Source: Rickettsiales bacterium (GTDB taxonomy: Bacteria; Pseudomonadota; Alphaproteobacteria; Rickettsiales; UBA8987). Taken from it: DNA of 64,000 nucleotides. Made by a program: the position numbers and the translations under genes. Below, in pieces: positions 37,988 to 44,047 of the stretch; within the stretch, counting starts at the first letter, position 1; every line of letters starts with the position of its first letter. Under the pieces are notes generated by a model. The model saw only the letters and a list, made by a program, of their open reading frames with translations, ran no database searches and was not told the DNA's origin. The DNA lies in NCBI GenBank assembly GCA_020630095.1, contig JAHDCD010000005.1, positions 1 through 64,000 of the forward strand. The letters are read 5' to 3'.

Positions 37988-38602
37988 ATGACAGGGAAAT
38001 TTATTACATTTGAAGGAGGAGATGGGTCTGGTAAGTCTACGCAGATAAACCTTCTTTCACGTTATTTAAATGCGCGTGGTATTCCTTATATTGTTACTCG
38101 TGAGCCGGGTGGTACTAAGGGCGGTGATATTATCCGTAATGCAATTTTGAAGAAGGATGCTTATTCGTGGAATGCGTACTCGGAAATTCTACTTTTTGCG
38201 GCATCTAGAAATGAGAATGTTGAACATATAATTAAGCCTGCGTTAAATGCTGGGCGCTGGGTGTTATGTGATAGGTACATTGATTCTACGCGTGCTTACC
38301 AAGGTTATGGGCTGGGTTATGATATGGAGTTAATTGAGCTGGTTAATTCTAAGTTTCCTAAGCCAGATGTTACGGCACTTTTTGATATTGAAGTTGAGAA
38401 GGCGTTGGCTAGGTCTAATGCTAGGCTTGAGCTAGAAAGTTCGGATGAAAGTAGATATGAAACTAAAGCGATTGAGTTTCATAAAACTTTGCGTAATGGC
38501 TTTTTAGAAATCGCTAAGGCAGACCCTGAGCGTATGAAGATTATCAATGCAGATGAAACTGTTGATAATGTATTTTCTCAAGTAATTGATGCAATTATTT
38601 AA
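37988..38602 (+). CDS. tmk: thymidylate kinase
   Basis: A 204-aa P-loop kinase: FEGGDGSGKST (about 8-18), DRYIDSTRAYQG (dTMP binding), and the TREPGGT loop. It makes dTDP from dTMP. In alphaproteobacteria it is often next to holB; here it follows the histidine kinase. Confidence 0.93.
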   Translation: MTGKFITFEGGDGSGKSTQINLLSRYLNARGIPYIVTREPGGTKGGDIIRNAILKKDAYSWNAYSEILLFAASRNENVEHIIKPALNAGRWVLCDRYIDSTRAYQGYGLGYDMELIELVNSKFPKPDVTALFDIEVEKALARSNARLELESSDESRYETKAIEFHKTLRNGFLEIAKADPERMKIINADETVDNVFSQVIDAII

Positions 38603-38612
38603 TGGTTGATTG

Positions 38613-40064
38613 CTAGAAGCCGCCACCAGTACGGAATCCGCCGGATGATCTACTACCACCGAAGCCACCACCGCGAGGGAATGAGAATCCGCCGCCCATT
38701 CTACTTCTTGTATTACCGCCCCAATTCATACCACGGCGAGGCGAGTAGTTTGTGCGCCTAAACATATCGTCAATTTTATTATAAGGATTATAATGTAATG
38801 GCCTGATTCTATCCATAAATAGGCCAGATGTAAGCGCGCCAGTAGCTAGGTTGCTGATTAGTAGGTTAATCATGTTCTTATCCTTAAATGCGGATGAGAA
38901 ATTAGCATAACCCTTAGAATTAAACTGGCTTAGCGCTTCGGACAGGTTCTTATCGGCCTTGGTTTGTGAGTCTATTTGTTGCTGATAATTTGAGATATTG
39001 CGTTGTTGTGTATCTATTTGATTGCGTAGATCCTTTAACTCAATAACTAGTAAATCGTCTTCATTGGTTTGAGTTCTAAAGGCATCATCTCTTAGAATGC
39101 GTAAAGTTTGATTATCGTAATTCTCAGCTAGAAGTTGGATTGCCTTTAAATAAGATGAATCTTTATTGATGCTGAAATTATTAATTTCTTCTAGTAAGGC
39201 ATCATTATCGGCATCTAATTTCTCTAATTTTTCTTGTAGCTTTATTAGAGAATCTTGTTTCTTTTGAAGTTCGGTTTGTAATTTATCTACGCCGTCCTTT
39301 TTAAGCGCTGTAGTTTCAATATCAGTTAGCTCAGCCTTTAATTTAGTATAGGTTTTTTCTAAATCTTTTAGATGCTCTTCAAGTTGTTTCGGCAGGGTTG
39401 AGAGTACTCTGTAATTGGCCATATTTGAGCCGTAATCTATAACGCGCGCAACCCAGTTATCTAGAATATGGACTATGTTATTTGCTTCATAATCTTTTGT
39501 ATCATACCCCTTGTTCCATAGATACATGAAGGTTTTATCATTCTCGTAATCTACTGCCTTTTCGGTATAGTCGGCAGTTGCAACTTCAATTTTATTTTCA
39601 GCGGTGAAATATAAGTCTTCTGCTTCTTTAGTGTTTTTAAGTAGATCTTTATATGCTTTGCCCTTTAGTAATTCTTTTAAGGTTGCGGTTTCTGCTTCTT
39701 CGACTTTTAAGGCAAATTTCTCTAAGTCTATAGATTCCTTAGCTATCTGGTCAGATAAAGAATCACGCTTTTGATAGGCGGTTTTTAATTTCTTATTATG
39801 GCTTTCTAATTCTTTATCACGTTGCTTAAGTAACTTTAAAGAGTATTTTTCAGATTCTTTTAGCGAGCCTTTAAAATTTTTATCATTTAGAATATCGGCG
39901 CGTTGTTCAGCCAGAATATTATAAATCTCAAACTCGCGTTCAACTGCTTGGGTTAGGCTTTCGTTAGCTGATCTTAAGGATTCTTGAAGAGTTAAGCTGT
40001 TTTTTTCAACTTGCCTTGAGGCATTGTTGAACATTGTTAATATTTGTGGGCCGTGAACTACCAT
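38613..40064 (-). CDS. long coiled-coil protein with Gly/Arg-rich C terminus
   Basis: A 483-aa protein. Residues about 1-390 are helical and heptad-like (Lys/Glu/Leu-rich). A short hydrophobic stretch at about 402-420 may touch the membrane. The last 40 residues are low-complexity Gly/Arg/Phe/Ser (GGNTRSRMGGGFSFPRGGGF and SRSSGGFRTGGGF), an RGG-like tail that often binds nucleic acid or drives condensation. It overlaps the DUF6384-like gene by 7 nt and is the last of three. No known family assigned. Confidence 0.7.
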   Translation of the reverse strand: MVVHGPQILTMFNNASRQVEKNSLTLQESLRSANESLTQAVEREFEIYNILAEQRADILNDKNFKGSLKESEKYSLKLLKQRDKELESHNKKLKTAYQKRDSLSDQIAKESIDLEKFALKVEEAETATLKELLKGKAYKDLLKNTKEAEDLYFTAENKIEVATADYTEKAVDYENDKTFMYLWNKGYDTKDYEANNIVHILDNWVARVIDYGSNMANYRVLSTLPKQLEEHLKDLEKTYTKLKAELTDIETTALKKDGVDKLQTELQKKQDSLIKLQEKLEKLDADNDALLEEINNFSINKDSSYLKAIQLLAENYDNQTLRILRDDAFRTQTNEDDLLVIELKDLRNQIDTQQRNISNYQQQIDSQTKADKNLSEALSQFNSKGYANFSSAFKDKNMINLLISNLATGALTSGLFMDRIRPLHYNPYNKIDDMFRRTNYSPRRGMNWGGNTRSRMGGGFSFPRGGGFGGSRSSGGFRTGGGF

Positions 40065-40792
40065 TTTGTAATTATTCCCCCTAATGTGCCATCAATATAT
40101 ATTATATCTTCTTGAGATTTCTTCTCACCAAGGATGTTATTTTGGATAATACCATCGTCCTTCTTATCAGCTCCGATAGAGTTAAATAGCTCCTCTGAAA
40201 CGCGAACTGCAAATTTATCAGTTTTCTCTGACTCGTTAGTTTCTTCATTAATAACGTAGATATCTTGCGTTTTGCCGAGTGCATTAATTGGTTCAACAAT
40301 TATATAGTAATTTTTAGCATTAGGGTTTGAATCTGGTATGCGCCAAATGCCTGAACGTTCACCATGTTCAGAATAAATTCTTAATTTATAAGATTGTTCA
40401 TTCTGTATGGTTTGAACTTCATCAGCCGTTGGTTGTTTGATAAATATGTTATAAATTAGCAGAAGAGCAATAAATGCTATTAGTGCATAAAGTATATATT
40501 TACCCCATGTGCCACGGGTAACATAGGCCTTAGCAATCTTCGCGGAGAAAGAGTTTTTAGGCTCTTTATATTTGAACCTATCTTCACGAAGGGCGGTTAC
40601 ACCATCTTTTAATACATCGTCAGATACTTCTAATCCTTGAGAGGTATAGATAGATTTTAAACGCTCTATTAACTTGGTATCCTGCTCTTGGGTATTAAGT
40701 TCACGCTTTATAATATTGCTACGGTGGCGGAGAGTATCCACCACGTCCATAGCAACCATTACATCGGTAAGCTTTTGTTTTGGCTTAGCCAT
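40058..40792 (-). CDS. DUF6384-like membrane protein
   Basis: A 244-aa protein from the ATG at 40792 (MAKPKQKLTDVMVAMDVVDT). A longer frame would overlap the previous gene. The N terminus matches the DUF6384 pattern KLTDVMVAMDVVDTLRHR as I recall it. One membrane helix (WGKYILYALIAFIALLLIYN) is followed by a charged domain of about 125 residues (YYIIVEPINALGKTQDIYVI). Function is unknown. It lies 64 nt after the all-alpha gene and overlaps the coiled-coil gene. Confidence 0.65.
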   Translation of the reverse strand: MAKPKQKLTDVMVAMDVVDTLRHRSNIIKRELNTQEQDTKLIERLKSIYTSQGLEVSDDVLKDGVTALREDRFKYKEPKNSFSAKIAKAYVTRGTWGKYILYALIAFIALLLIYNIFIKQPTADEVQTIQNEQSYKLRIYSEHGERSGIWRIPDSNPNAKNYYIIVEPINALGKTQDIYVINEETNESEKTDKFAVRVSEELFNSIGADKKDDGIIQNNILGEKKSQEDIIYIDGTLGGIITKW

Positions 40793-40856
40793 ACTTTTAA
40801 TTGTTGGTCGCACGGGCATGGAAAACCGGTTCCCACTTTTCCTGCCCTTTGCTCCG

Positions 40857-42041
40857 TTAAGCAGCGATCTTGTTAACTTGTGTAGTTGAGCCCGCACGTT
40901 CAGCAAGTTTAGCCATACGTTGCTTGCCATCTTCAACAACGTCGTGAATTTCTTCAGCGTTCTTAGTTGAGGCAACTCGAGCTTCTTTGATGATATCAGT
41001 TGAGCGTTCTTGGTATGCAATAATTGCATCTACAAGCTTTTTAACTGATGCTGCGCGGATAGTTGGGCCGTAACCTGCTTTAAGCGCTTCTTCTTGAACT
41101 TTACCACCAATTTCAGCCAGTGTTTCAAGTGATTTTTCAACACCTTCTTTCATGCGGTTAAGCGTTTGAGTTGATTCATGAAGGCCATGTAAGCCAGTGA
41201 ATGAAGCTGAAAGTGCAGTAAGTACAGTTTCGTTAGTTGAGAAGAAAGAAACTGACTGTGCATATACGCGTTGCTTAGCAGAGGTTGTTTGGTTTAAACG
41301 CGCCATAACTACTTCAGATGTATTGTAACCAACAGTTAGGTTATCAGATAAATCCTTAGCGATTTGATAACGACCATCTTCATCTTGAAGTTCACGTAAT
41401 TTTTCATCGCGAGTGAGTTCAAGTTTTGAGCGTTCAACTGCCTCTTCACCTGCGTAGGCCGCTAATGAGTCTGCCGCAGTTTCTAGAGCACCTTGTGCTT
41501 TAGCTACTCTGTTTTCAGCTGTTTTTAATACCTCTAGAGCTAGAATTTCAGCTTGCTTTAATGCGCCGCGGAAATCGCGATAAGCATCTAAAACTGTGTG
41601 CTCGCGGTTAATTTGGTCTTGTGTGTCGTTAGCTACTTCTAGGTAGGTTTCTTTGATTTTATCGAAACGTTTAGAAATGTCGCCACGAGTTACTTTCATC
41701 CATAAGTTGCTTGCGCGCTCTAGTGTTGAAAGTTCACCATCTTCAACTTGATCTACCATGTTTTTTGCATCGTTGCGGATAGAGTCGAAATTATTGGCGA
41801 TATCTTCATAACGACTGCCGTATTTCATTTCTTTAACTTGTTCACGAACTACTTCGTTGAATAAAGATGCTTGAGATAATGCGCGAGCGATAACTGGTAC
41901 ACGCTCTTCATCTACAATTTGAATGCGTTGTATTAATGCAGTGATGGGCGCTTCTTCTACAGCGGCCTCATCAGTGATAATTCCCATTTCTTTTAACTTG
42001 CCAAGAGCTTGGTCAAGATACTTCATAACTGTTTGTTTCAT
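40857..42041 (-). CDS. all-alpha cytoplasmic protein, possibly TelA-like
   Basis: A 394-aa protein that is almost wholly helical, Ala/Glu/Lys-rich and without signal or membrane segment. The N terminus (MKQTVMKYLDQALGKLKEMG) is followed by repeated amphipathic helices. Length and helicity recall the TelA/toxic-anion resistance group, but I see no diagnostic motif, so the name is tentative. It is the first gene of a three-gene unit. A perfect 17-bp inverted repeat (42057-42094) lies 16 nt ahead of its ATG, suggesting a leader hairpin or operator. Confidence 0.6.
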   Translation of the reverse strand: MKQTVMKYLDQALGKLKEMGIITDEAAVEEAPITALIQRIQIVDEERVPVIARALSQASLFNEVVREQVKEMKYGSRYEDIANNFDSIRNDAKNMVDQVEDGELSTLERASNLWMKVTRGDISKRFDKIKETYLEVANDTQDQINREHTVLDAYRDFRGALKQAEILALEVLKTAENRVAKAQGALETAADSLAAYAGEEAVERSKLELTRDEKLRELQDEDGRYQIAKDLSDNLTVGYNTSEVVMARLNQTTSAKQRVYAQSVSFFSTNETVLTALSASFTGLHGLHESTQTLNRMKEGVEKSLETLAEIGGKVQEEALKAGYGPTIRAASVKKLVDAIIAYQERSTDIIKEARVASTKNAEEIHDVVEDGKQRMAKLAERAGSTTQVNKIAA

Positions 42042-42056
42042 TATTTTCTCTCTTTT

Positions 42057-42094
42057 GTTAAGATTATATAATTTGTTAATTATATAATCTTAAC
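42057..42094. promoter_or_regulatory. perfect 17-bp inverted repeat before the all-alpha gene
   Basis: Arms 42057-42073 and 42078-42094 are exact complements with a 4-nt loop (TGTT). They begin 16 nt from the start codon. The symmetry and location suit a dimeric repressor site or a 5'-UTR hairpin. The AT-rich stem makes a terminator unlikely. Confidence 0.65.
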
Positions 42095-42117
42095 TATACA
42101 CTGCGCATCCGCGCGTG

Positions 42118-42141
42118 CAAAACTAGCTCAAGCTAGTTTTG
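42118..42141. repeat. 11-bp palindrome with CA loop
   Basis: Perfect arms CAAAACTAGCT and AGCTAGTTTTG surround a 2-nt CA loop. It closely resembles the hairpin at 11642-11665 (arm CAAACCAAGCT, same loop), so it is probably the same element family. A following pair GTAATTT/AAATTAC extends the structure. Confidence 0.6.
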
Positions 42142-42234
42142 GTAATTTGTAGAAATGCAAATTACTCTCCTAAAGTTGAAGTAATACAATCAGCTTAAAA
42201 ATACAAAGATGCAAGTAAAAATGGCGTGAAAACC

Positions 42235-42651
42235 TTACTTATCATTGATTGCAAGTGCGCCAGCAGAGCCGCCGAATATGTAAGCTAATGAAGTTAGGGT
42301 AATAAATGCTGAATATTCCCATCCGCCGTTAGTTATGCTCCAGCCCGCAGGGAAGTGAACTAGAATTGCACCGAATAGAATTGGTAATAATAAAGTTGTT
42401 ACAGTTCTAGAGAATAGTCCGATTAGAATTAGCAAACCACCTAGGCCTTCGGCAATAATAATTGGCCATGCAAGTTCAGATGGTAATGTGATGTTTATAA
42501 ACGGAAGAGTTGTTCCTGCTAAGTAAGTTTCGAATCCAGCTACTGTGAATACAGAATATTTTAAGTAGGCGTGAGCCATAAACATTGCACCTAATGCAAT
42601 TCTTAAAAGTAGCGGAGATAATTCTGAATTTTTTCTTAGCATATTTTTCAT
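42235..42651 (-). CDS. DoxX family membrane protein
   Basis: A 138-aa protein with four hydrophobic helices and the DoxX pattern (LLLRIALGAMFMAHAYLKYSVF at the start, then AWPIIIAEGLGGLLILIGLFSR). DoxX proteins are membrane parts of redox or sulfur-compound oxidation complexes, or of unknown function. It is followed by leuC upstream on the same strand (25-nt gap). Confidence 0.85.
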   Translation of the reverse strand: MKNMLRKNSELSPLLLRIALGAMFMAHAYLKYSVFTVAGFETYLAGTTLPFINITLPSELAWPIIIAEGLGGLLILIGLFSRTVTTLLLPILFGAILVHFPAGWSITNGGWEYSAFITLTSLAYIFGGSAGALAINDK

Positions 42652-42676
42652 TTAATGGGTTAGAAAAAAATGTCAA

Positions 42677-44047
42677 CTATAAGAATTCACGAACGTCTGC
42701 AAGTTTACCTTTTATGGCTGCAGCTGCGGCCATAGCTGGACTCATTAAATGAGTTCTGCCACCTCTGCCTTGTCTGCCTTCAAAATTTCTATTAGATGTT
42801 GAAGCGCAACGCTCGCCAGATTCTAATTTATCAGCATTCATTGCTAGGCACATTGAGCAACCTGGTTCGCGCCATTCAAAGCCAGCTTGTGTGAATATTT
42901 CATGTAAGCCTTCTTGCTCGGCTTGTTTTTTAACTAAACCAGAACCCGGAACAACCATTGCTAATTTTACATTGTTAGCAATTTTTCTACCTTTCGCAAT
43001 TTCTGCAGCGGCGCGTAAATCTTCAATTCTGCCATTAGTGCATGAGCCAATAAACACCTTGTCGATATCAATATCGGTAGCGTTAACGCCCGCTTCAATG
43101 CCCATATAGTCAAGTGCGCGAGGCTTCTCATTAGGGATTTTATTGGTAATCTCAATAACGTCTTCTGGTGAAGTTCCCCATGTTATTAATGGTGGGATAT
43201 CGGCGATATTGATGGTGATTTCTTTATCAAATTTTGCGCCATCATCGGTTTTTAATGTTTTCCAGAATTTTACAGCTTTATCATATTCTTCGCCTTTTGG
43301 AGCTAGTGGCTTGTCTTTTACATATTCAAAGGTTTTTTCATCTGGGGCAATTATACCAGCGCGTGCGCCAGCTTCGATTGACATATTACAAATGGTCATT
43401 CTACCTTCCATTGAAAGGTCTTCAATGGCTTTACCAGCATATTCAATAACGTAGCCAGTGCCGCCTGCTGTGCCTAGTTCTTTAATAATAGCTAGCACAA
43501 TATCTTTTGCGGTTAAGTAGCTTGGCATATCGCCTTCAACATTAACGCGCATAGATTTAGATTTCTTTTGTACCAGTGTTTGCGTTGCTAATACATGCTC
43601 AACTTCTGATGTACCAATGCCATGAGCTAATGCGCCAAATGCGCCATGGGTAGATGTGTGTGAATCGCCACAAACAATAGTCATTCCCGGTTGGGTGAAG
43701 CCTTGTTCAGGGCCTACAATGTGTACGATGCCTTGGCGGATATCATTCATTTTGAAGTATGTTACGCCGAATTCATTGGCGTTATCTTCTAATGTTTGAA
43801 CTTGGATTCTTGAGGTTTCATCTGCTATGCCTTTTGATCTGTCCGTTGTTGGAACGTTGTGGTCGGCAACGGCAAGGGTTCTGTCCGGTCTTCTTACTTT
43901 ACGATTAGTTAAACGTAGGCCTTCAAAGGCCTGTGGACTAGTTACTTCATGAACTAAATGACCATCAATGTATAATAAAGATGTGCCGTCATCTGCTTCG
44001 TGAACTAAGTGGTTTTCCCAGATTTTATCGTATAGTGTCTTCGCCAT
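42677..44047 (-). CDS. leuC: 3-isopropylmalate dehydratase large subunit
   Basis: A 456-aa aconitase-family enzyme that isomerises isopropylmalate in leucine synthesis. It carries the [4Fe-4S] ligands in [13 protein letters not shown] and [11 protein letters not shown], and the conserved [22 protein letters not shown] block. The partner leuD is 17 kb away at 61.5 kb on the opposite strand, so the leuCD pair is split. Confidence 0.95.

Follow-up and report, generated by a model that had tools for sequence, protein, structure and literature searches.

We analysed a window of 64,000 nucleotides from a Rickettsiales bacterium (the whole stretch of DNA, from a source genome of 1.6 Mb in 13 contigs) and describe three of its genes, here called A, B and C, the second of which encodes a DUF6384 protein. 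As judged by sequence comparison, A-B-C is a real co-inherited three-gene unit, found in the same order and on the same strand at 78 of 78 distinct loci, which include chromosomes, 10 large plasmids and the jumbo phage phiR1-37. We tentatively favour a reading in which the three products would make up one inner-membrane-anchored assembly, perhaps for maintenance of the membrane or envelope under stress. The genes are placed as follows.

40857-42041, minus strand: gene A, 394 residues, from the open reading frame list and its translation.
40058-40792, minus strand: gene B, 244 residues, a DUF6384 (PF19911) protein.
38613-40064, minus strand: gene C, 483 residues, a coiled-coil protein with a Gly/Arg-rich tail.

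Co-inheritance and distribution of the three genes

An earlier note, written from the letters of the window, had described three minus-strand genes with the last overlapping the second by 7 nucleotides, and the open reading frames and their translations bear this out. The overlap spans 40058-40064, with the start of C inside the end of B. The same note had assigned the middle gene to DUF6384, and B indeed matches PF19911 with 283.3 bits (E 2.8e-84), passing the curated whole-protein cut-off of 25 bits. Its start is best placed at the ATG at 40792; the mechanical open reading frame is longer (323 residues), and the conserved region starts just past this position. Conservation of the gene neighbourhood around DUF6384, proposed in the note as a check, holds at all 78 distinct loci.

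Relatives of A were drawn from Dankookia rubra, plasmid records, phiR1-37 and the genome G528, and the genome G315 was reached via B. One of the 11 plasmid records, from Pseudomonas alcaligenes, was left out, its A being 99.7% identical to another. In this first set of loci, window included, A-B-C lies in one order and on one strand at 16 of 16. Searches that used one window protein at a time located A and B at 13 of 13 other loci and C at 12 of them, the phage being missed. Because the first profiles from 16 loci already contained most members, the searches were repeated with leave-one-out profiles. In all 16 cases these recovered A and B with E values no higher than 2.5e-45. For C, E was at most 2.5e-76 in 15 of the 16; the phiR1-37 C was the weakest (E 6.2e-6). 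A search with B only was added to avoid selection by A, and 63 of the 123 genomes with a B match, mostly the best-scoring, were inspected for A-B-C. The unit is present at all 47 loci of this set (44 distinct genes). It is also present in 31 of 31 usable larger stretches, 18 of them with new genes (one duplicate 501-base stretch was dropped), and the count for larger stretches stands at 47 of 47. The pairwise divergences of the three proteins correlate (r 0.77 for A-B, 0.58 for A-C and 0.78 for B-C), at a level reached by none of 2000 permutations. Shared inheritance alone would also produce such a correlation.

We surveyed the flanks in 47 stretches, most with 6-9 kb per side. No flanking family (blastp, 1e-12) occurs in more than 8 of them, and the commonest, present in 8, looks from its sequence like an ABC ATPase. 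Among the flanking groups of 5 loci are two sets of related genomes that share synteny. A-B-C looks self-contained.

DUF6384 exceeds its cut-off in 106 of 392 sampled genomes (108 at E 0.001) of the order of genome G105, within the class of the window (Alphaproteobacteria, as inferred from relatives). In the class to which genome G249 belongs, it does so in 15 of 364 genomes. In the family and order of the window this holds for 1 of 55 genomes, the source genome itself. Another genome of the same order, G050, carries a weak partial DUF6384-like match below the cut-off (locus L003, 1501-1749, E 2.5e-4). The samples that count the source genome gave 2 of 385 for the class (query A) and 2 of 398 for the phylum (query B), low counts that are at odds with the 106 of 392 in one order; the samples comprise different families, and one used the other query. 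In a tree of 57 A proteins, the copies of families f434, f442 and f49 group by family. The tree joins six Pseudomonas plasmids with phiR1-37 (99/99), at a point where long branches meet and the join may be false. The placement of the window A is unsure, its nearest identity being 65%, and the base composition of the window operon is unremarkable. Some lineages thus seem to keep the operon stably, whereas in others it seems to move, and acquisition is the probable origin of the copy in the window. In genome G528, two complete but diverged copies lie on separate contigs (L029 and L030).

Among 72,556 plasmid records, gene A was found on 11, which range in size from 323 kb to 1.39 Mb; among 50,697 phage records it was found in 2, both of one phage, phiR1-37. 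Each of these plasmids is thus at least 323 kb long and the sole phage is a jumbo phage, and scans of viral contigs for further relatives returned phiR1-37 only. The main text of the phiR1-37 papers searched makes no mention of g190, g191 or g192. Such carriage, with the patchy spread in the family and order of the window (1 of 55 genomes over the cut-off), would suit a conflict system, for superinfection exclusion or for plasmid or phage defence, in which A and C sense or transmit and B acts in the membrane. So would the genes for a StiP cysteine protease, which on two Pseudomonas megaplasmids lie with PTH2-like genes on the upstream side of the operon, at a distance of a few kb (L015, 5468-8001; L017, 5576-8785). 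The title of the StiP Pfam entry is tellurite-like stress resistance; the match was run for L015 only, and the L015 and L017 proteins align. Against a conflict system, none of the seven proteins scanned has a PADLOC match below E 0.001; the best PADLOC-DB match is ZorA at E 0.0029, to residues 278-391 of one A relative. In addition, within some families of the order of G105 the loci (groups of 5) share their chromosomal surroundings, and families f434, f442 and f49 form clades, unlike fast-turnover defence islands. We regard a conflict system as unlikely, and as the main rival of the membrane assembly.

The three proteins and a possible membrane assembly

Two segments, one in B and one in C, figure in the proposed assembly.

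40439-40495, minus strand: residues 100-118 of B, likely its one transmembrane segment, hydropathy 2.68, the sole segment above 1.4.
38616-38636, minus strand: C-terminal peptide FRTGGGF of C, a conserved end.

Protein B aligns to positions 2-130 and 195-308 of the 308 of PF19911. It lacks profile positions ~131-194 (about 60 residues), between the transmembrane segment and the C-terminal domain. Its relatives range from 440-501 residues (six Pseudomonas-plasmid proteins and the phage protein) through 386 (a Rhizobium plasmid) to 301-338 (five others aligned). Because lengths differ this widely, the part after the transmembrane segment looks like a spacer of free length. At a hydropathy threshold of 1.6, one transmembrane segment is counted in 11 of 14 relatives and none in 3; at 1.4, one is counted in 13 of 14 and two in 1. 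The N-terminal flank of the segment is more positive than the C-terminal flank in 14 of 14. Thus, B likely crosses the membrane once, with its N-terminus inside. The structure model of B is helical in its N-terminal half and beta-rich in its C-terminal half, with a mean predicted local distance difference test score (pLDDT) of 66.2. It has no Foldseek match below E 0.001. The best VIA Z for B is 5.8, with almost all rows on the low-confidence N-terminal part and the C-terminal domain hardly covered. A Trp lies within the last 13 residues of B at 46 of 47 loci. B shares the transmembrane segment and the conserved ends with DUF6384, whereas the Pfam model describes B alone, without the constant partners A and C. 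In the literature searched, no paper names DUF6384 or PF19911.

Protein C consists of coiled coils followed by a tail of variable make-up, Gly/Arg-rich or Ser-rich. It ends in a strict F-x-T-[GS]-[GD]-x-F at 33 of 47 loci and in a looser [FWYI]-x-[TSN]-[GS]-[GDERNT]-x-[FILG] at 43 of 47, both patterns having been defined after the tails were viewed and many of the 47 being close relatives. Three of the four exceptions to the looser pattern are near variants (RNTGGGF, WRTTDSF and FRTGKTF). Locus L204 deviates at both conserved ends: its C ends in RTGGRIR, and its B has no terminal Trp. The position of a conserved peptide at the free C-terminus of a flexible tail suggests a docking element. The earlier note had seen an RGG-like tail; a Gly/Arg-rich tail is present in the window, and what relatives conserve is the terminal peptide, not RGG. 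An RNA-binding RGG tail was considered and set aside: the repeats are unconserved in relatives, and the Pseudomonas and phage proteins retain the terminal peptide on Ser-rich tails.

Protein A is all-alpha, with no transmembrane segment by hydropathy. Its most conserved blocks lie at ~141-160 and 221-340. The A model has a mean pLDDT of 63.9 and is least certain at 275-329, inside a conserved stretch. Neither A nor C has a convincing match in Pfam, NCBIfam, PHROGs or PADLOC, and A has none among PDB sequences; scans of the PHROG library gave no useful match. The family-library searches with A relatives gave the best 25 of 43 families, from an alignment in which one of the 14 rows was misread. 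Two plasmid records (L009 and L010) annotate gene A as 'merozoite surface protein 3b', a name that is surely misleading; the papers on this protein, among the matches listed, concern Plasmodium.

We propose that the three products cooperate at the inner membrane. B would cross the membrane once, with the helical N-terminal domain inside, the beta-rich C-terminal domain outside and a linker of variable length. The soluble helical A and the coiled-coil C would assemble beneath the membrane on the inner domain of B, and the extreme C-terminus of C may act as a docking peptide of the F-x-T-[GS]-[GD]-x-F type. The role would be membrane or envelope upkeep under stress. The earlier note had proposed a membrane-linked assembly, perhaps a stress or envelope complex. 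The first part is reasonable, because a co-inherited three-gene operon includes one membrane protein; the stress role is a guess, and a doubtful one. We infer a physical complex of A, B and C. Several points weigh against the assembly as proposed. Among the loci examined, no homologue of known function and no conserved neighbour hints at envelope stress, and the structure models of A and B are weak, as their mean pLDDT indicates. C could bind at some other site or work on nucleic acid, and a conflict system would account equally well for carriage by plasmids and a phage. At its boldest, the proposal is of a self-contained membrane machine, in which A and C form a cytosolic lattice that the tail peptide of C fastens to B, a stalked transmembrane receptor, sealing or guarding the inner membrane, and which large mobile elements use to protect their cell. 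We think this version improbable.

Comparison with TelA, PspA and pore formers

The TelA operon (PF05816) is, by analogy, the closest analogue of A-B-C in layout. As with A and B, a soluble all-helical protein of ~390 residues is encoded beside a membrane-protein gene (L019 and L020), which we take to be XpaC. In A-B-C, by contrast, B has one transmembrane segment and a beta-rich half, and a third, tailed protein is encoded at all loci examined. One paper describes TelA in Ter systems as forming sub-membrane structures, and places TelA in jumbo phages and Ter systems also on jumbo phages and plasmids (PMC7824862). Another cites a Listeria lmo1967 (TelA) mutant with raised sensitivity to nisin and to tellurite (PMC12791056).

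A could be a remote TelA, and the operon a variant of the TelA-XpaC membrane-stress pair. When 16 A rows were aligned to 29 TelA sequences, the global score of 29.3 (probability 56-58%) lay above 180 of 180 block-shuffled controls (maximum 20.3), whereas the local score of 31.2 was beaten by 1 of 180. The signal faded with 57 A rows: the global score was then 20.7 (12% probability), with 60 shuffles reaching at most 19.4, and the local score of 21.4 lay within the shuffle range. The first small comparisons had given probabilities of 0.5% and 2.9%. The 16-row A profile scored 24-27 globally against family C; this fell to 15.5 with 57 rows, and C was rejected as a relative of A. Against the open reading frames of TelA loci, the best match of the A profile was a TelA (E 0.0015), in two pieces in the wrong order. 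The A model has four phage TelA or tellurite proteins (E 0.04-0.12) in its list of 50 viral Foldseek matches, none of them below E 0.001 and the model itself being of low confidence, and one A relative matches a 'tellurite resistance' PHROG at E 0.057. On the other side, a TelA hidden Markov model does not lift A out of the background (its 100 listed rows include 4 of the 16 A members), TelA is absent among the 25 of 43 Pfam families listed for the A relatives, and PF05816 matches neither the A of the window, with E allowed up to 5, nor any protein of the source genome. Sequence kinship of A to TelA is thus not established: the 57-row scores are near those of shuffles and the TelA model misses A, so membership is not claimed. 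We consider a remote TelA quite improbable.

C resembles PspA/IM30 (PF04012) in being a coiled-coil protein with a possible membrane-stress setting. It reached 66% in hhalign with a local score of 41.9, above 75 shuffles (maximum 36.4), but its global score of 21.9 was below the maximum of 34.5 for shuffled PspA. With 57 C rows the local score drops to 34.7 over 44 columns. We read the similarity as a likely reflection of shared coiled-coil make-up, and C was rejected as a PspA relative. A against PspA stayed at background level, as did a comparison of A with chemoreceptors, a kinship that was likewise rejected.

The top structural matches of the A model are pore formers (6h2f_B, Z 13.9, root-mean-square deviation 4.0 over 271 residues), as would be expected if A were an alpha-pore-forming protein of the ClyA/AhlB/XaxA kind and the operon a tripartite pore. 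Yet a best Z of 14 is typical of mostly helical models that lack a clear match, as given for a set of five, and the A model is of low confidence, least sure at 275-329. The highest 19-residue hydropathy among 14 A proteins is 1.38, which argues against a pore, and the beta-rich half of B argues against a tripartite one. A pore is very hard to credit. No known system was matched to A-B-C; its novelty rests on failed matches, and a known fold could still emerge. The literature searched held no description of the unit.

The upstream region, and what the linkage means

The region upstream of gene A contains three further features.

42057-42094, no strand: perfect 17-bp inverted repeat, arms 42057-42073 and 42078-42094, 17/17 complementary, loop of 4.
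42042-42056, minus strand: purine-rich leader AAAAGAGAGAAAATA, likely ribosome-binding region, between the hairpin and the ATG, identified by reading the sequence.
42093-42121, minus strand: weak match to a sigma-70-like promoter (TTTGCA-17-TATAGT), directly on the upstream side of the hairpin.

The perfect inverted repeat reported in the earlier note is confirmed, its near arm lying 16 nucleotides upstream of the start of gene A at 42041. It is the sole perfect one in the window (arms of at least 13, loop of at most 12). As RNA, the 88-nucleotide leader has a folding energy of -25.8 kcal/mol, with a z of -8.2 relative to 200 shuffles. The note had also named conservation of the hairpin beforehand as a point on which its reading could be refuted, and here its expectation fails. 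The hairpin is carried by 0 of 13 other loci (250 nucleotides upstream of each, both G528 copies and the loci fetched later being left out), where the longest perfect arms are 9. In the source genome, 22 half-site matches with at most 2 mismatches (13 for a control pattern) included no second perfect pair. Because of these two results, the repeat is considered local and outside the conserved unit, a putative operator or leader hairpin. A dimeric repressor acting on it is possible, and gained no support from the analyses here. No Rfam match was found in 38000-43000.

The unit is flanked by a thymidylate kinase gene (37988-38602, plus strand) and a DoxX-like gene (42235-42651, minus strand). The 193-nucleotide gap between A and the latter contains the hairpin, one weak promoter-like match and one plus-strand terminator-like repeat. 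Promoter-like matches in the region number 2 against 1.0 expected from shuffles, a weak excess. The operon likely has its own promoter. A DoxX relative (~41% identity) lies ~490 nucleotides downstream of the operon in L031 and at none of the other loci of the first set. On the Pseudomonas aeruginosa plasmid NZ_CP017294.1, the Type IV CRISPR gene csf2 (L009, 17791-18837) lies ~5 kb from the operon.

DUF6384 is common in one order (106 of 392 genomes), and the operon occurs on giant plasmids and in a giant phage as well. Through the three-gene linkage, this orphan family becomes a system that can be tested, as it now has a membrane anchor, a partner and a conserved peptide.

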